Positions 4,442 to 27,109 of a DNA stretch of 51,532 nucleotides are shown one piece after another. Location: positions 1 to 51,532 of the forward strand of contig JAQWRY010000018.1 of the NCBI GenBank assembly GCA_029243485.1. Direction: 5' to 3'. Every line of letters starts with the position of its first letter. The first letter of the stretch is position 1. Origin of the DNA: Candidatus Binatia bacterium (GTDB lineage: Bacteria > Desulfobacterota > Binatia > UBA12015). The notes below the pieces were generated by a model. The model had not been told where the DNA came from, did not search any database, and was given only the letters and a program-made list of their open reading frames with translations. The position numbers and the translations under genes are program-made.

Positions 4442-6096
4442 TGAAGAAGCCGCTCTCGCTCCTTGCCTGCCTGTTGGTCGTCGCACTCACTGGTCTCGCC
4501 GAGGATGCCTCCGCTCTCAGCAAGGACCGATGGACAAACGCGAAGCCGTACGGCGTGTTTTTCAACGACTATGATCCCAACTTCTACACGGGCTTCGTGC
4601 CGCGCGTGCAGCAAGCGGATCGAATCAAGATCCATCTCGGTCGCGGCAATCAGCTGCGGGTTCGCATGATTCTCCCCGACGAGACCATCGACAACTTCGT
4701 CGTTGATCAGGTGACGAAGCACGATCTCTATCAAGAGGTCATCGATGAGGGCGTGATCGAACTCACGGCGAACAAGGCGTGGGAGGACTACGACAAGCGA
4801 TTCCGGGAGTCGGGTCTCCGCGAGATTGCGGCCAAGAAGGGATCGGTCTCGCCCCAGGAGTGGCGGCAGCTGAACGTGCAGGCGCTGCAGAAGCTCCAAC
4901 CGGAGCGCGTCTACCACATCCAGAAGGACTTTGGGCAGATGACGAAGGACTTCTACGCATCGCTCGCCGCTGCACCGGAACCGAAAAACCTCGGGGCCAA
5001 GCTCGACCTCGTGAACGGCTACTTCAAAAACCGCATCTTCGCCTACAACCTCACGAAGGAGCAGGACGCCGCCCTCGCGGAGTTGATCACTCTTGCGAAA
5101 GCGAGCGACGAGGCGGGCTTCACGCCGAAGGCCCAGGCGTTTTTCGCTAGCGTCACCGACGGGGTCTACCCCGTGACGGACGGCAAGATCGACTACTACG
5201 AGTACACCGCGATCTGGGCCGCCGGGACGTACGATAAGACCAAAAAGATCAACGGCCAGGAGATGCCGTGGATCACCACGCCGGGCGTCTGGACGTTCAT
5301 CCCTCGGATGCACGGCAAGGGCATCACCGGGATGGTCGATTACATCTCGTCGGCCGGGTACTACGGGCTCATTCCGATGTTTCCCTACGAGTACGGCGGT
5401 GGCATCGCTTACAACGCGATCCACAACACCGGGATCAGCAACTGGATCCAGGGTCATCCGCTCCTGCCGAAAGAGTGGAAGACGTACACGGACGGTAGCC
5501 GGACCGGGAAGCCCTACAATCGGGTCGCCGTGACGAGCCGTGGGCCCGTATCGCACGGTTGCACCCGTCTCGGGTCGGGGCACCTGGCGGAACTTCGCGA
5601 GATGCTCCCCTCCACGTCGGAGGCGATGAAGGGCATCGTGAACTACCGGAACGTCTCGCAGTGTTACGATGTCTTCGATCGCGCGGGGGACGGCAACGAG
5701 GAGGTGATGGGGGTGCAATATTACATCGCCTTCCGTCACACGAACGAGCGCGTCGCGAAGCACATCTGGGCGCAGAACAACCGCGAGGACTTCTACAATT
5801 GGCTGTACGGTAGCGACATGAAGTTTGGTCCCATCGGCGACGTCACGTTCGACGAAGTGTGCACCGGAAAGTTCGTGAAGAAGAAGGCAGCCGTGGGCGA
5901 GAAGTACGAGAACCTGAAGCTCTACGAGGCGCCGTACGAGCCCGAGACGATTCAGTTCTACAAGATCAAAGGTGTGGGCCAACTCTCGAAGGAGGGGATG
6001 GATTTCAACCGAGAGATGCGCCGCGTGGGTGCCGGCTATCAAGTCGATCGGAAGAAACTGCGGCTTGACTCGAAGAAGTCAGCCGCGGCGCAGTGA
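4441..6096 (+). CDS. Exported L,D-transpeptidase (YkuD)-like protein
   Basis: A 551-residue protein with a signal peptide ending near residue 25. Residues 362-377 contain VAVTSRGPVSHGCTRL, matching the catalytic SHGC-x-R signature of YkuD L,D-transpeptidases (Cys374, Arg376). His328 or His339 may play the upstream His. The spacing from this His is larger than the usual 14-17 residues and about 300 residues precede the core, so it is a divergent member. Such enzymes form 3-3 peptidoglycan cross-links or attach proteins to peptidoglycan. The ATG overlaps the stop of the di-haem peroxidase, so the pair is made together. Exact activity is unproven. Confidence 0.8.
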   Translation: MKKPLSLLACLLVVALTGLAEDASALSKDRWTNAKPYGVFFNDYDPNFYTGFVPRVQQADRIKIHLGRGNQLRVRMILPDETIDNFVVDQVTKHDLYQEVIDEGVIELTANKAWEDYDKRFRESGLREIAAKKGSVSPQEWRQLNVQALQKLQPERVYHIQKDFGQMTKDFYASLAAAPEPKNLGAKLDLVNGYFKNRIFAYNLTKEQDAALAELITLAKASDEAGFTPKAQAFFASVTDGVYPVTDGKIDYYEYTAIWAAGTYDKTKKINGQEMPWITTPGVWTFIPRMHGKGITGMVDYISSAGYYGLIPMFPYEYGGGIAYNAIHNTGISNWIQGHPLLPKEWKTYTDGSRTGKPYNRVAVTSRGPVSHGCTRLGSGHLAELREMLPSTSEAMKGIVNYRNVSQCYDVFDRAGDGNEEVMGVQYYIAFRHTNERVAKHIWAQNNREDFYNWLYGSDMKFGPIGDVTFDEVCTGKFVKKKAAVGEKYENLKLYEAPYEPETIQFYKIKGVGQLSKEGMDFNREMRRVGAGYQVDRKKLRLDSKKSAAAQ

Positions 6097-6168: not shown

Positions 6169-6873
6169 ATGAACACGGCTGCACGGAAATGGACCTCGTT
6201 CGTGGTGGGGTCGGGCATGGTGCTGCTCACGGTGACGGGCGCGGTTGCCAAGGATGAGATCGAACTCCAGACGGAAGTCGATCAGGCGAGAACGATTCTC
6301 AAAGGCTTCCAGTCGATTCCCGAGAAGGGGATCCCGGACGCGGTTCTGCGCAACTGCAAAGGGCTCGCTTTCCTCACGGTGCTACGCGCGGGGTTCATCA
6401 TCAGCGGGTCGGGCGGTAAGGGGGTCGTCGTGGCCAAGAACGACGACGGTACCTGGACGGGTCCGTCCTTCATCGGGACCGGCGGCGCGGGCTTCGGCTT
6501 CCAGATCGGCGCTCAGGTGAGCGAGTTCGTCATGGTCCTGAACACCCCCGAGGCGGTCCAGGCGTTCGCCAAGGGCGGCAACGTTTCTGTTGGTGCGCAG
6601 GTGAGTGCGGCGGCCGGCCCGGTCGGGCGCAGCCTGGGTGCCGAGGTGATGCCGCAGGCGGCGGTCTACACCTACAGCCGCGCACAGGGCCTCTTCGGTG
6701 GGGTCTCCTTGGACGGAACGGTAATCGCAACGCGTAAGGAGGCGAACACCGAGTACTACGGCAAGAAGGTCTCGGCGAAGGCGGTCCTCGTCGGTGAGGT
6801 GCCGGCTCCGGCCGGGGCCGACGCACTCCGTGCGGACCTCGCGAAGGTGACCGCCGCCGCAAAAGCGAAGTAG
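6169..6873 (+). CDS. SYLF/Ysc84-domain lipid-binding protein
   Basis: A 234-residue exported protein with a signal peptide ending near residue 27 and a strong ribosome-binding site (AGGAGG, seven bases upstream). The body matches the SYLF (Ysc84/BPSL1445) family: 'IPEKGIPDAVLRNCKGLAFLTVLRAGFIISGSGG', the Gly-rich WTGPSFIGTGGAGFGFQIGAQ segment, and the late 'LFGGVSLDGTVI' block. Bacterial members are secreted or periplasmic and are linked to lipid binding. The gene ends with TAG before a bidirectional terminator shared with the DUF922 gene. Confidence 0.9.
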   Translation: MNTAARKWTSFVVGSGMVLLTVTGAVAKDEIELQTEVDQARTILKGFQSIPEKGIPDAVLRNCKGLAFLTVLRAGFIISGSGGKGVVVAKNDDGTWTGPSFIGTGGAGFGFQIGAQVSEFVMVLNTPEAVQAFAKGGNVSVGAQVSAAAGPVGRSLGAEVMPQAAVYTYSRAQGLFGGVSLDGTVIATRKEANTEYYGKKVSAKAVLVGEVPAPAGADALRADLAKVTAAAKAK

Positions 6874-6878
6874 TTTCG

Positions 6879-6914
6879 AGCGGGGCGTTCGTCGAGGTAG
6901 GAGAACGCCCCGCT
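6879..6914. terminator. Bidirectional intrinsic terminator
   Basis: A perfect 12-bp stem (AGCGGGGCGTTC at 6879-6890 with GAACGCCCCGCT at 6903-6914) around a 12-base loop lies between the converging SYLF and DUF922 genes. Its 3' arm overlaps the first base of the DUF922 stop codon. T-runs are short, so strength is uncertain. Confidence 0.7.
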
Positions 6915-7825
6915 TAACGGGTCCAGGAGAGGCGGGTGGCGAGCGCCGCGCGAGCTCCGACCTTTTCGTTGTAACGAGTCACGAGCTCGTTCCGGGTATC
7001 GACGAGCTCATTGCTCTGGTCGGTTAGCACTTCCACCTCGGCCGCGAGTTCCTGTGCACGGGCGAACTCGAACGGCGGCAGCGTGTTGCCGTAGTGTGCG
7101 GCCAACTCGTCGAGCGCGGCTGCGTACCGCGCGCGGTCCTCCGCGTAGGCCGCGACCTGGTCTTCCAGCCGGTCGAGTTCTCGCTTCTGGCGGTTCAGTT
7201 CGGCGTCCGTGGTCTTGATCTCCCGCAGGAGTGCGGCCTGCGCATCTCGGACCGCACGAGATTCTTGCGCATGGAACGCGTCGTGCCGTTGTCGCGTGAG
7301 CTGCGCTTGTTCCTCGATGGCCCGCTCGACGAAGCGGTTGCATGTATCGGCAGAGGCGCCGGTGGCCTCGATCGTCTCATGTTCGAAGCGCTCTTGGAGC
7401 TCCTGCACTCCCTGGAACTCGATCTCGACGTGGCGGTACTCGTGGAACTCGATCAGGGCTTCGTAGGCTGCCCACTGGCGGCGTGTGTTTTCGTCGACGT
7501 GCCGAGGCTGGGCATGCTTGGGGAGCGTGACGACGACGTTTGCGCGTAGATTCAGCTCGACGAGGCGGCAGGATGAGGATGTGGTGGCCGTCGAGAGGCC
7601 GAACGAGAGCTCGCTTTCGGTGAGGCCGCTGGCCGCGAGCCCGGCCTTTCCTCCGAGGCCTTGTCGCTGGATCGACGCGAAGACCTCGTCGGCGTTGGTG
7701 CCGTAAACGTCGTAGTACTGCTCTCGTACGTCCGTATCGACGCGAACGAGCGGCGCGGTGGCCCCCGCGGGAACCGCAATCAGGCACGCGGCTGCGACGA
7801 GGATGGGGTAAGCGTGCCGAGTCAT
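6914..7825 (-). CDS. Secreted DUF922 protein, putative zinc protease
   Basis: A 303-residue protein with a signal peptide ending near residue 23. The N-terminal domain resembles DUF922 ('YYDVYGTNADEVFASI', 'LNLRANVVVTLPKH', 'RQWAAYEALIEFHEYRHVEI'). Residues 128-132 are HEYRH, an HExxH zinc-metallopeptidase motif. Residues about 175-300 are Arg/Glu/Ala-rich and predicted coiled coil, a tail that could mediate envelope association. Proteolysis has been proposed for this family, so the catalytic call is inference. It converges on the SYLF gene. Confidence 0.85.
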   Translation of the reverse strand: MTRHAYPILVAAACLIAVPAGATAPLVRVDTDVREQYYDVYGTNADEVFASIQRQGLGGKAGLAASGLTESELSFGLSTATTSSSCRLVELNLRANVVVTLPKHAQPRHVDENTRRQWAAYEALIEFHEYRHVEIEFQGVQELQERFEHETIEATGASADTCNRFVERAIEEQAQLTRQRHDAFHAQESRAVRDAQAALLREIKTTDAELNRQKRELDRLEDQVAAYAEDRARYAAALDELAAHYGNTLPPFEFARAQELAAEVEVLTDQSNELVDTRNELVTRYNEKVGARAALATRLSWTR

Positions 7826-18321: not shown

Positions 18322-18346
18322 GGCCCGACCTATTCGGGGTCGGGCC
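18322..18346. terminator. Bidirectional terminator hairpin
   Basis: A perfect 9-bp stem GGCCCGACC (18322-18330) / GGTCGGGCC (18338-18346) with a 7-base loop sits between converging genes. The 5' arm and loop overlap the stop codon of the DoxX-like gene (TAG at 18330-18332). No strong T-tract. Confidence 0.6.
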
Positions 18347-18713
18347 GCGTGTACCACCAGGCCCACACGCCGAACAGGAACTGGAACGGGAGTCGCACCC
18401 AGTTCGTGACCGGGCTCCCGGTGCCGGGACCTTCCGGCCCGACGTTCTCGAGCATCATGTAGACGTTGGCCGGGTACACGGCGATGAGCAGGGCGATCAC
18501 ACCCCAAGCGGCGAGCACCCGAGTCTTCGGCTCGAGAAGATAGACGCCGAGTACGATCTCGATGAGTCCGGAGATCACGTTCAACCATTCGGGGTTGGGG
18601 AGCTCCGGGGGGATGATCGCGACGAAGAAGCTCGGGTTGATCAGGTGCAGGAAGCCCGTGAAGCACAGTTGGAACGACAGGAGGTAGAGGAGGGGCTTCT
18701 TGAATCTCGCCAT
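18330..18713 (-). CDS. DoxX-like small membrane protein
   Basis: 127 residues with about four transmembrane segments (near 7-33, 44-60, 68-86 and 102-122). The layout 'FTGFLHLINPSFFVAIIPPELPNPEWLNVISGLIEIVLGVYLL' is that of DoxX/DoxD-like membrane proteins. Function unknown; relatives accompany thiol-redox and thiosulfate systems. A second DoxX-like module occurs at the N-terminus of the selenoprotein at 19232. Confidence 0.8.
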   Translation of the reverse strand: MARFKKPLLYLLSFQLCFTGFLHLINPSFFVAIIPPELPNPEWLNVISGLIEIVLGVYLLEPKTRVLAAWGVIALLIAVYPANVYMMLENVGPEGPGTGSPVTNWVRLPFQFLFGVWAWWYTRPDPE

Positions 18714-19007: not shown

Positions 19008-19231
19008 CGGTGTTTCCTCGTGTTCGTGCGGCCGTCGGGGATGGGGACGAAGAGGAATCGCGGGGGCCGCCGCATTGAAGATACCGGCATGGCACCGTCG
19101 GGTCATGAGTCCGGTCTGGACTCCGTCCCGAGGCGTGCTGTAATGAGGCCGACCCGCTCGAAGGAACCCGGCTGCAGACCGAATACACGACCGTCGTCGA
19201 CCCGGCGGAACTCGTCCCGCTGGCCATCGCG

Positions 19232-20254
19232 ATGGGAATCCACGTGATAGCGGCAATTCTGCAGACCGGGCTCGCGCTCTTCCTGATCGCTTCGGGTGTC
19301 TACGCGCTCGCTCGCCCTGGCGGCGATTCGGTTTGGGCGGGACGACTCGGGCTGGCTGTCAGCGGTGTCGCGGTTTCGAAGGTGTTTGCCGGTCTTCGAA
19401 TCGGACTCGGTGTGCTTTTGGTGCTGCCGTTTCTCACGGGCGCGCCCACGCTCGTATCTCTCGTCGCCGGCGTCCTTGCGTTCGGGGTTCTCCTCCTCGC
19501 GGAGCGCGCTCTTCCCAAAGGCGGGGTCCCGCGGGGGCGAATGGCCCGGCGGGTCGCGATCTTCGCCACGGCCGCGGTCGCCCTGTTCATCGTCTGGGAA
19601 GGCGAAGACGGATTGGCTCTCGCCGTCGCCCTCACCACGAACATGTCCGAGTCGCGTGTGCACGAACTCGACTGGCAGCACGAGAAGGACGTGGGCGCGC
19701 CCAAGGTCGGCGACGTCGCACCCGATTTCGAACTGCAGGACCCGGAGGGAGAGACCGCTGTGCGTCTCTCCGACTTCCGCGACAAGAGGCCGGTGGTCCT
19801 CGTCTTCGGGAGCTATACTTGACCTCCCTTCAGTAGTGGGGCCGGGCGTCTCACCGAACTTTACGAGAAGTACAACGACGAGGTCGAGTTCATCGTCGTG
19901 TACGTGAAGGAAGCGCATCCGACCGACAAGTGGTGGCTCGGACGGTCGCGCACGCAGCGCGTCCTTCATGGGTTGTCCGGCAACCCGGCTCGGTTGGATG
20001 TGAAGGACCCGGTCAACCTCGAGCAGCGCCGCAAGGTCGCCGCGAGCTGTCAGGCAAATCTCTTCGACGGTGTCGTGCCGCTGTACGTCGACACGATCGC
20101 CGATGAGGTGAGTGCGACCTATGCGGGGAAGCCGACGCGGATCTACCTGATCGGGAAGGATGGCCGCGTAGTCTACAACCCGGGAATCGGTCCGTTCGGC
20201 TTCAACCCGGACCACCTGGGCAACGAGATCGAGCAGTACCTCTCCGCCGGCTGA
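19232..20254 (+). CDS. Membrane-anchored iodothyronine-deiodinase-like selenoprotein
   Basis: A 340-residue frame with an in-frame TGA at 19820-19822 (codon 197). Residues 1-125 form about four membrane helices resembling DoxX-like proteins. From about 155 a thioredoxin-like/peroxiredoxin domain starts ('GDVAPDFELQDPEGETAVRLSDF'). The catalytic segment is VLVFGSYT-U-PPF, then 'YEKYNDEVEFIVVYVKEAHPTDKW'. This matches the deiodinase signature FGS-x-T-U-PPF with a downstream YxxEAHxxDxW. Bacterial deiodinase-like proteins are known as redox selenoproteins; true deiodination is not implied. No strong ribosome-binding site precedes ATG 19232. The frame is open further up, and a CTG at about 19172 behind AAGGA could be the real start. 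Confidence 0.9.
19836..19854 (+). promoter_or_regulatory. Candidate SECIS of the deiodinase-like gene
   Basis: GTGGGG pairs with TCTCAC (5-6 bp including G-U pairs) around the 7-base loop CCGGGCG, with the loop about 20-26 bases after the TGA. The position is right for a bacterial SECIS, but the stem is weaker than in the peroxidase gene. An alternative hairpin nearer the TGA (loop TTCAGTA) is also possible. Confidence 0.45.
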
Positions 20255-24710: not shown

Positions 24711-24826
24711 CCGAAATGCAGGCGTGTCAATTGGGCCCTTGTCTGGGGCCGGTCCGCTCACCTAAAATCTGGTGTCGCGCACCTCGCGTCTGCCCTTCGC
24801 GCAGTTGCGCCCAACTCCCGGGGCCC

Positions 24827-27109
24827 TTGTTGAATCTACTACGTCGATCCTTCGCGCTTGCCGCGGCCGTTCTCATTGCAATTCCTGCTGCAGCGAGTGC
24901 GCAATCGATCGCCCGCCAGTGGAACGAGCTGAACCTGGAGGCCACTCGTCGCGATCTGGCGCGTCCCACGGTGCACGCCCGCAACCTCTTCCACACGTCG
25001 GTCGCGATGTGGGACGCTTGGGCGGCGTACGACGAATACGCGCTGACTTATCTGAACCACGAGCGCGCGTCCGCCGGTGACGTGGCCGCGGCGCGCGCCG
25101 AGGCGATCAGCTTTGCGGCGTACCGGGTCCTCTCGTCACGGTTTGCGACGTCGGTGGGTAGCGCCGTCACGCTCCCGGCGCTCGACGCGAAGATGGATGC
25201 GCTTGGCCACGACCGGAACTTCACGAGCGAGGTGGGCGACACGCCGGCCGCTCTCGGAAACCGCATCGCCGCCGCGGTCTTGGCCTTCGGCGCCGCCGAC
25301 GGCTCGAACGAGGCGAACGGCTACATCAATCAGTTCTACCTCCCATCGAACCCCCCAATTCTTCCGGCGCTGTCCGGAAACCCCGATCTCGTCGATCCCA
25401 ATCGGTGGCAGCCGATCGCACTCGACTTCTTCATCGATCAAGCGGGGAATACTATTCCGGGTGGGTATCCCGAGTTTCTGAGCTCGGAGTGGGGGATCGT
25501 TACGCCGTTCGCGCTGAGCCCGGCGGATCTCACGATCTACAACCGAGGTGGGTTCGACTATTGGGTCTACCACGATCCGGGCGTGCCGCCGGAGTTCGGT
25601 GGCGCGACGAACGACGAGTACCACACGACGTTCGAGCAGGTGCTGGAGTGGAGCGCTCGCCTCGATCCCGCCGACGGCGTAATGATCGACATCAGCCCGA
25701 ACGCGCGCGGGAACAACACGCTCGGCACCAACGACGGAATGGGCTATGCGGCCAATCCCAAGACGGGGCTCCCCTATGAGCCAGAGGTCGTTTTGGCGGG
25801 AGACTACTACCGGACCCTGGCAGAGTTCTGGGCCGATGGCCCCGACTCCGAGACGCCGCCGGGACATTGGTTCGTGCTCGCGAACGACGTGGCCGACCAC
25901 GCGGAACATCAGTCCCGCATCGGCGGCGTCGGCCCCGTCGTCGATCCGCTCGAGTGGGATGTGAAGGTCTACCTCACCCTCGGAGGCGCGATGCACGACG
26001 TCGCGATCTCCGCGTGGGGGACGAAGGGTTGGTACGACTCCGTGCGCCCGGTCTCGGTCCTGCGTTTCCTCGCGGATCTGGGCCAGCGCAGCGATCCGCT
26101 CGAACTGTCGTATCACGCGGACGGCATTGCACTGGAGCCGGGTCGCGTCGAGGTAGTCGCTCTCGCGACCGTCGCTCCCGGCGAGCGCCACGAGCACCTC
26201 GCTGGCCCGGGCAATGTCAACGTAGGCAAGATCGCCGCGCGAGCGTGGCGTGGACCGGACTACATCGCGGATCCGTTGACGGACACCGCTGGCGTGGACT
26301 GGATCCTCGTCGAGAATTGGTGGCCGTACCAGCGCCCGAGTTTCGTCACGCCGCCGTTTGCCGGCTACGTCTCCGGGCACAGCACGTTCAGCCGGGCGGC
26401 GGCCGAGGTGATGACGCAGCTGACGGGTGACGCGTACTTTCCCGGTGGTCTGGGTGAGTTCGAGGCACCGCAGGATGCGTTTCTCGTGTTCGAAAATGGT
26501 CCGAGCATCGACGTGACCCTTCAGTGGGCCACGTACTTCGACGCTGCCGACGAGTGCAGCTTGTCGCGGATCTACGGTGGCATCCATCCTTCCGGGGACG
26601 ATATCCCCGGCCGCTTCATGGGTGCTGCCATGGGCCCCGACGCGGTGGCTCTAGCGACGTCCTACTTCGGTCCTCATCCGACGCTCGAACTCTCCCGCGC
26701 GACCGCGTGGCCGCGTAGTCAGGGCCGCGGAAAGATCTCTCTGAAGGGAACGCTTCGGACTGGCGTCTACGGGGCGACTGACGTTCTCGACGTGTCTAGC
26801 GGGTTTGAGGTCACCGTGACGGACGACCTCACCTTGAATGAGGTCGGCGTCCTAGACGCGGACGACTGCGTCACGAAGAAGAACGGCAAGATCAGGTGCC
26901 GCTCGGACGACAAGACCTTGAAGGTCACGTTCAAGCCTTCGAAGCAGACCCCGGGTGAGTATGGGATCACCGTGAAGATCAAGGGTCGGGACTTCGGGGA
27001 GCCCGTCGCGGGGCCCATTCGCGTCGACCTTGCGGCCGCCGGAGTCGAGTGGGCAGGGCGCATCACATTGTGCGCCGGCCTGAACGCGAAGGTCGTCTGT
27101 AAGAACTGA
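24827..27109 (+). CDS. Vanadium-dependent haloperoxidase-like (PAP2 superfamily) secreted enzyme
   Basis: About 760 residues. TTG 24827 or 24830 is preferred because it gives a compact signal peptide (LLRRSFALAAAVLIAIPAAASAQS); an ATG at 24716 would add 37 unlike residues and has no ribosome-binding site. Haloperoxidase landmarks are 'GTKGWYDSVRPVSVLR', 'PFAGYVSGHSTFSRAAAEVM' (the SGH vanadate/phosphate motif) and 'SRIYGGIHPSGDDIPGR' (Arg and His ligands). Expected activity is halide oxidation with H2O2, or phosphatase-like chemistry. A C-terminal domain of about 120 residues after 690 is Lys/Asp-rich and beta-predicted, with 'DDCVTKKNGKIRC', and may be a secretion or binding module. It is convergent with the nitronate monooxygenase gene. 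Confidence 0.88.
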   Translation: MLNLLRRSFALAAAVLIAIPAAASAQSIARQWNELNLEATRRDLARPTVHARNLFHTSVAMWDAWAAYDEYALTYLNHERASAGDVAAARAEAISFAAYRVLSSRFATSVGSAVTLPALDAKMDALGHDRNFTSEVGDTPAALGNRIAAAVLAFGAADGSNEANGYINQFYLPSNPPILPALSGNPDLVDPNRWQPIALDFFIDQAGNTIPGGYPEFLSSEWGIVTPFALSPADLTIYNRGGFDYWVYHDPGVPPEFGGATNDEYHTTFEQVLEWSARLDPADGVMIDISPNARGNNTLGTNDGMGYAANPKTGLPYEPEVVLAGDYYRTLAEFWADGPDSETPPGHWFVLANDVADHAEHQSRIGGVGPVVDPLEWDVKVYLTLGGAMHDVAISAWGTKGWYDSVRPVSVLRFLADLGQRSDPLELSYHADGIALEPGRVEVVALATVAPGERHEHLAGPGNVNVGKIAARAWRGPDYIADPLTDTAGVDWILVENWWPYQRPSFVTPPFAGYVSGHSTFSRAAAEVMTQLTGDAYFPGGLGEFEAPQDAFLVFENGPSIDVTLQWATYFDAADECSLSRIYGGIHPSGDDIPGRFMGAAMGPDAVALATSYFGPHPTLELSRATAWPRSQGRGKISLKGTLRTGVYGATDVLDVSSGFEVTVTDDLTLNEVGVLDADDCVTKKNGKIRCRSDDKTLKVTFKPSKQTPGEYGITVKIKGRDFGEPVAGPIRVDLAAAGVEWAGRITLCAGLNAKVVCKN

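Follow-up and report, generated by a model that had tools for sequence, protein, structure and literature searches.

Deiodinases are usually presented as hormone enzymes of animals, and the animal enzymes carry one N-terminal helix. Proteins of the MauE/DoxX type are membrane proteins with several helices that work with a thioredoxin-fold partner. The deiodinases (Dios) are described as membrane selenocysteine (Sec) enzymes in the accessible part of one of two accounts (PMC7506546, PMC11592359). Bacterial deiodinase-like proteins were reported in 2005 from the Sargasso Sea, where four Sec and six Cys sequences are given (PMC1088965, available sections), and the GOS survey of 2008 recorded bacterial deiodinase-like selenoproteins again, with a table row reading 22, 12 and 21 (PMC2398784, available sections). 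Two reviews list the deiodinase-like family, giving no membrane form or function in their accessible text, and both state its motif as UxxC (PMC9312934, PMC13188914). Among the 83 rows aligned in the present analysis, a Cys three residues past the Sec or Cys occurs in none. A membrane-fused deiodinase-like subfamily was not found in the open-licence literature, as far as its accessible text extends. Bacterial deiodinase-like selenoproteins have been known since 2005, and the membrane-fused subfamily predicted here from sequence comparison appears to be the new part.

The locus lies in a stretch of 51,532 nucleotides from Candidatus Binatia bacterium, referred to below as the window. It comprises one gene (19172–20254, plus strand, 360 aa, stop TGA at 20252–20254), in which a predicted four-helix membrane module (residues 1–175, 19172–19696, plus) precedes a deiodinase-type thioredoxin-fold domain with Sec (residues 176–360, 19697–20251, plus). 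The sequence-only reading had placed the gene at 19232–20254, with Sec at residue 197; its frame and end hold, and its start, an ATG, comes 20 codons late. That ATG at 19232 is the first ATG, GTG or TTG in the window's frame. The orthologue from the same genus (L034) has its ATG opposite CTG 19172 in the alignment, 20 codons further upstream, and a putative Shine-Dalgarno-like GAAGGA (19160–19165, plus) stands 6 nt before this CTG. On these two grounds the gene probably starts at CTG 19172, a rare start codon, from which the window's first 20 codons line up with the beginnings of the orthologous frames; counted from there, Sec is residue 217 and not 197. Other elements of that reading were found as described: the signatures FGSYTUPPF and YVKEAHPTDKW stand in one frame at the positions expected, with TGA read as Sec, and four hydrophobic segments lie upstream, where the predicted model shows four long helices. 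The claim that the membrane part and the Sec deiodinase-type domain form one gene is supported by the same fused frame at 13 other loci. This recurrence, in 13 of 80 loci, together with the third-base and base-pair constraint after the TGA, sets the fused frame beyond chance.

The decoding of the TGA at 19820–19822 (plus) as Sec217, the counterpart of Sec170 of Dio3, is well supported by the comparison of orthologous sequences and by a hairpin. An alternative is that the TGA either truly terminates translation or is an artefact of sequencing or assembly, and that the frame is a pseudogene. The stop codon itself speaks for it, as does the finding that the window's 51 nt after the TGA, folded alone, do no better than shuffles. 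Set against this are the same TGA codon in 12 of the 13 other fusion loci, which come under different contig and isolate names (the remaining one, L043, has TGT), the excess of synonymous (42) over non-synonymous (19) codon changes that separates the window from L034 downstream of the TGA, the retained hairpin and the presence of Sec machinery; the probability left to a pseudogene is negligible. The absence of a Sec decoding system had been named beforehand as an objection to the selenoprotein. The window's genome (6.55 Mb, 97.5% complete) has adjacent matches for selA (545 bits) and selB (349 bits), about 60 bases apart. It also has selD (285 bits) and a tRNA-Sec scoring 76 bits, which ARAGORN likewise calls as tRNA-SeC(tca). 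A selA match above the cut-off is present in 11 of the 12 TGA-fusion genomes; it was not found in the genome of L039, although the L039 copy has TGA. The Cys member L043 is without the hairpin, and the selA match in its genome reaches 20 bits only.

The SECIS-like hairpin (19836–19854, plus; stem GTGGGGC/GTCTCAC, loop CGGGC) corresponds to the structure obtained with RNAalifold for the 12 TGA fusion members, namely a 7-bp stem with the loop CG[GT]GC beginning 20 nt after the TGA. A hairpin with an apical-loop G occurs in all 13 TGA fusion rows. Across 12 rows, 95.2% of the 84 hairpin cells are paired, against 87.6% in shuffles, none of 500 of which reaches 95.2%, and slid versions of the hairpin have at most 56% of cells paired. 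Three of the seven pairs show changes on both sides; 57 of 500 shuffles have at least as many such pairs. The six double-changed cells belong without exception to L044 and L045, which are related, so that they may go back to one event. A scan by a rule of our own, applied to 88 loci reduced to 85 rows (two duplicates and one locus without the site were dropped), detected a hairpin in 64 of 70 TGA rows and in 5 of 15 Cys rows; the hairpin energies of TGA and Cys rows differ with a Mann-Whitney p of 2.8e-7, which is not a strict probability, the rows being related. Among 62 codon columns with an invariant residue in the 12 Sec members, counted over residues other than Met, Trp and Sec, only K178 and R226 keep one third base, and the R226 codon (CGT) falls inside the hairpin. 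The Rfam scan of the window returned no family at its gathering score.

The C-terminal part had been called deiodinase-like, and both profile and predicted fold bear this out. It matches Pfam T4_deiodinase (PF00837) with 91 bits (curated cut-off 27), a match made by all 13 fusion members, and a phmmer search against PDB sequences places Dio3 first (E 9.9e-21), followed by Dio2 (E 2.9e-12). The AlphaFold2 model of the window protein was built on 13 aligned relatives (pLDDT 83). In VIA-align, the predicted domain is closest to Dio2 (9h48; Z 19.2, rmsd 2.8, 174 residues) and then to Dio3 (4tr3; Z 19.0, rmsd 3.0, 170 residues), after which come AhpE (Z 17.2, rmsd 2.2, 146 residues), other peroxiredoxins and ResA. 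The domain also resembles the NCBIfam 'deiodinase family protein' NF038285, although its 179 bits stay below the cut-off of 250 (best stretch, profile positions 175–337 of 347). With the bacterial deiodinase-like selenoproteins, as far as their available descriptions go (PMC1088965, PMC2398784), the fusion shares the Pfam family, the occurrence of Sec and Cys forms and a bacterial SECIS; unlike them, for which no membrane module is described in those parts, it has one, along with its own loop length and its own clade.

The accessible text of two accounts of Dio3 and Dio2 assigns roles to Ser167, Cys168, Thr169, Sec170, Tyr197, Glu200, His202, Trp207, His219, Arg225 and Cys239 (PMC7506546, PMC11592359). 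The window protein keeps the thioredoxin fold of Dio1–3 and the full Ser/Thr/Sec/Tyr/Glu/His/Trp/Arg set of the active site, and in 68 Sec rows the equivalents are near-invariant (S in 68, T in 66, Y in 67, E in 68, H in 68, W in 67 and R in 67), whereas the Ser167 equivalent is Asn in 14 of 15 Cys rows. The differences from Dio1–3 include four helices and a Tyr in place of Dio3 Cys168, this equivalent being Tyr or Phe in most Sec rows. No conserved His corresponds to Dio3 His219 in the long loop, but the loop aligns poorly with Dio3. A Cys at position 293 (20048–20050, plus; model helix 283–297), a candidate resolving residue, occurs in most rows of either kind (Sec, 65 of 68; Cys, 14 of 15), and it stands elsewhere than Dio3 Cys239, 7 residues past the Arg as against 14, counted on the alignments. 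The stretch from the active His to the Arg counts exactly 38 residues in all 14 fusion rows, compared with 24 in Dio3 and 22–27 in the other rows, except L046 with 41. This lengthened omega-loop (residues 249–286, 38 aa, 19916–20029, plus) contains HPTDKWWLGRSRTQR in the window protein and is particular to the fusion clade.

Peroxides and halogenated aromatics are the candidate substrate classes of the fusion enzyme. The preferred reading, to which a little less than an even chance is given, is a one-chain deiodinase-family enzyme that acts as a membrane-anchored periplasmic selenol reductase, with Sec217 and possibly Cys293 as the resolving residue, and with a hydroperoxide as the likely substrate; the peroxide is suggested by the resemblance of the fold only. 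The Sec217 selenolate would be activated by a Glu247/His249 network and would attack an oxidised or electrophilic substrate, of which a hydrophobic hydroperoxide is the likeliest, once it arrives at the membrane surface. Cys293 may then resolve the oxidised Sec217, giving a selenenylsulfide whose reduction would fall to a thiol donor in the periplasm; the membrane module and the long omega-loop perhaps serve to dock this donor. In the Cys member L043 position 293 is a Tyr, which indicates that the resolving role of Cys293 would be dispensable in some members. The dedicated membrane redox device proposed in the sequence-only reading fits the fusion protein as predicted here. A periplasmic reductive dehalogenase is a serious though rather unlikely alternative, in which the Sec would attack the iodine or bromine of a halogenated aromatic while the module and the omega-loop bind the hydrophobic substrate. 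The near-invariant Dio3 active-site equivalents agree with dehalogenation, and the part that is specifically lengthened is the omega-loop, which in the available descriptions of Dios shares in thyronine recognition; however, no conserved equivalent of His219 is apparent in the poorly aligned loop, and the 2005 description, in its accessible part, expected a different function for the bacterial proteins, possibly redox (PMC1088965).

The predicted module (model m0ec67f797138, pLDDT 85) consists of helices at residues 11–47, 70–89, 93–112 and 123–143 and an outer helix at 147–172. The mean numbers of K/R and D/E over the 13 aligned members are 0.15 and 2.4 for the N-terminus, 2.5 and 1.2 for loop 1, 2.7 and 0.9 for loop 3, and 2.8 and 6.2 after helix 4. 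Judged from these loop charges, the four-helix module would sit in the inner membrane with its N- and C-terminal ends on the outer side, which would place the Sec domain in the periplasm. No Cys is conserved in the module, and the window's own module contains none; a role in anchoring, docking or delivering substrate is therefore more probable for it than that of a DsbD-type thiol electron relay. A module that is merely an anchor gained once, with the chemistry of the soluble bacterial deiodinase-like selenoproteins, has only a slim probability. The faster divergence of the module is what a mere anchor would lead one to expect, and it counts against the preferred selenol reductase: between the window and L034 identity is 59% in the module and 87% after the Sec. 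On the other side, eight residues of the module and linker (P86, F139, E143, D146, R162, E165, W168 and Q169) are invariant in the 13 aligned members, which belong to several phyla.

The membrane part had also been called 'DoxX-like', and this label finds weak support: MauE and NACHO/TMEM35A hint at it, and no DoxX-named Pfam family does. MauE (PF07291) is a weak match in 3 of the 13 modules (best E 0.0028), none of them the window's, which has no Pfam match of its own. DoxX-named families (PF07681 and kin) were not listed for the 13 members up to E 10, a listing limited by the HMMER filters, which discard most weak matches. A sequence comparison made on the question of DoxX kinship did not discriminate, 7 of 13 rotated controls giving E 0.002–0.011 against 0.0037 (reversed control about 0.9), and a search of PDB sequences with the module returned one match at E 2.4. 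In VIA-align the top row for the module is NACHO/TMEM35A (PDB 9h9e; Z 11.8, rmsd 2.1, 103 residues, 18% identity), ahead of 2rld (Z 10.9), and for helical bundles a Z below about 13 may reflect just a common arrangement. NACHO/TMEM35A, a DoxX-family protein according to UniProt, is absent among the 50 Foldseek rows listed for the module, where the best PDB match has E 0.25; the best viral match of the module has E 0.089. Kinship with VKOR, with rows only at Z 7–8, was not accepted. A DoxX kinship of the module is weakly supported. A reading that builds on it has the four-helix NACHO/DoxX-like module draw a hydrophobic halogenated compound or a quinol-derived electron pair out of the membrane and hand it to the periplasmic Sec via the lengthened omega-loop, which would make the protein a bacterial membrane dehalogenase that works by deiodinase chemistry and stands near the type of protein that could have given rise to the animal deiodinases; its probability is small.

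The likeness to MauE bears on a further alternative, a one-chain thiol-disulfide unit of the MauE/MauD kind, in which the module would act like MauE/DoxX and the Sec domain would handle the disulfides of exported proteins. MauE is the most repeated of the weak module matches, weak matches of the thioredoxin part to MauD (best E 0.0035) occur in 11 of 13 members and matches to ResA in 12 of 13, and ResA, DsbE and FetE come after the Dios in the Foldseek list for the domain. The same genome (L124, contig C86) carries separate MauE (105 bits) and MauD (214 bits) genes in a row with a third gene that is methylamine-dehydrogenase-small-subunit-like (179 bits, cut-off 197). Nevertheless, the MauE cut-off is not reached, and the fusion differs from MauE/DoxX proteins and MauE–MauD pairs in being one chain, in lacking the CGC found without variation in 17 MauE rows, and in having [UC]PP[FH] (13 aligned members) instead of CxxC. 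Alignment of the module with the MauE alignment by hhalign gave a probability of 8%. Membership of MauE was rejected, and a MauE/MauD-like unit is considered distinctly improbable.

In the GTDB species collection (84,980 genomes), 274 relatives of the domain were detected, and the analysis proceeded with the best 80. The membrane module is fused in 13 of these (L034–L045 and the damaged L055), which together with the window confirms that the two-part architecture recurs in several phyla. The taxa are Deltaproteobacteria (L034, L035, L036, L038, L042), Myxococcota (L039, L040), Proteobacteria (L037), a Flavobacteriaceae MAG (L043), Desulforhopalus (L044) and Desulfoluna (L045, L055). The fusion frame is intact in Desulfoluna butyratoxydans (L045), and the Desulfoluna spongiiphila copy (L055) is unlike its relatives towards either end. 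Homologues split into two genes at the junction, which the sequence-only reading had named as counter-evidence, did not appear in 395 sampled genomes of the phylum or in the best 80 of the 274 loci. A separate module gene was likewise not found in the six frames of those 80 loci and the window, where two further rows came at E 0.33 and 0.61. The module HMM gave two strong matches in the 395 genomes of the phylum, both fused; three matches below 22 bits were rejected as module genes, their frames looking unrelated. In 395 sampled genomes of the order of L043, 93 had some match; the match was full-length in the genome of L043 only, and in the others it fell mostly on the thioredoxin core.

A midpoint-rooted tree of 83 rows groups the 14 fusion rows in one clade with branch support 100/98. 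The single clade and the shared 38-residue loop indicate that the module and the longer omega-loop were probably gained together, once. The constant company of loop and module in 14 of 14 rows weighs against a mere anchor. In favour of a mere anchor are the nine-row sister clade (Chloroflexota and Gammaproteobacteria-type MAGs) and the second, soluble Sec deiodinase-like gene of the same genome (contig C88, L013, about 4800–5480, minus strand, FGSHTUPPF), both without a predicted membrane segment and with the same active site. The spread is patchy: PF00837 is present in 2 of the order's 14 genomes, and both of these carry a single fusion copy next to a single soluble Sec copy elsewhere in the genome. 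A search of plasmids gave one distant match covering 21% of the query. At L041, a soluble Sec deiodinase-like gene (about 6440–7170, minus strand) lies tail to tail with the fusion gene.

The open reading frames around the fusion were compared between the window and 12 loci, L055 being left out. A DoxX-type neighbour, proposed as a check in the sequence-only reading, does adjoin the fusion gene: a small DoxX/MauE-type gene (18330–18713, minus strand, 127 aa), divergent to it, scores 22 bits for MauE (cut-off 27) and 18 bits for DoxX (cut-off 23.6). Among the 12 loci compared it occurs again only beside L034 of the same genus, where it is 94% identical and the other shared genes are 51–88% identical. 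Downstream of the fusion lie a 199-aa minus-strand gene, a TonB-dependent receptor, an APH-like kinase and a haloperoxidase-like protein. The last of these, DUF6851/vanadium-haloperoxidase-like (24716–27109, plus strand), is downstream of the fusion in both genus members and lends the dehalogenase some support, but 12 of the order's 14 genomes have DUF6851 as against 2 with PF00837, so the adjacency carries little weight and the haloperoxidase link gains no support from co-occurrence. Gene order is conserved only between the window and L034 among the 13 stretches, and in these no neighbour is conserved in place beyond the genus that would point to a pathway, partner or stress. Beyond the genus, what matches is either weak or from a large family: short-chain dehydrogenases near four loci (three Pfam-confirmed), a hydratase-like frame of L037 (34–35%), L042 against L035 (29%), and, at 27%, acyl-CoA-dehydrogenase-type genes of L035, the one on which Pfam was run, and of L041.

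The fusion subfamily offers a handle on the role of the bacterial relatives of deiodinases. Useful in this respect are the integral membrane form, the natural Cys counterpart (L043, with no convincing selA) and the relative in a named species, Desulfoluna butyratoxydans. Moreover, since the module and the longer substrate loop are inherited jointly, these are the parts predicted to act together. Several other forms were observed among the related loci. At L033 (1501–1833) a second deiodinase-like copy stands beside the Sec copy and has its Sec site replaced (FGSSASVLRAD). A Cys-only subfamily with FGN[FI]TCGPF and about 240–390 aa before the Cys occurs at L060, L069, L077, L079 and in other Planctomycetota. 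Flavobacteriales proteins of 422–456 aa (L155–L158) combine a Cys deiodinase-like domain with a signal-like N-terminus, and two of them also have a C-terminal tail that resembles a secretion signal. Another group of Sec proteins (L022–L024), with the motif F[SG]SI[TS]UPA and a distant match to PF00837, carries the hairpin CGGCUC-GGUC-GAGCCG.
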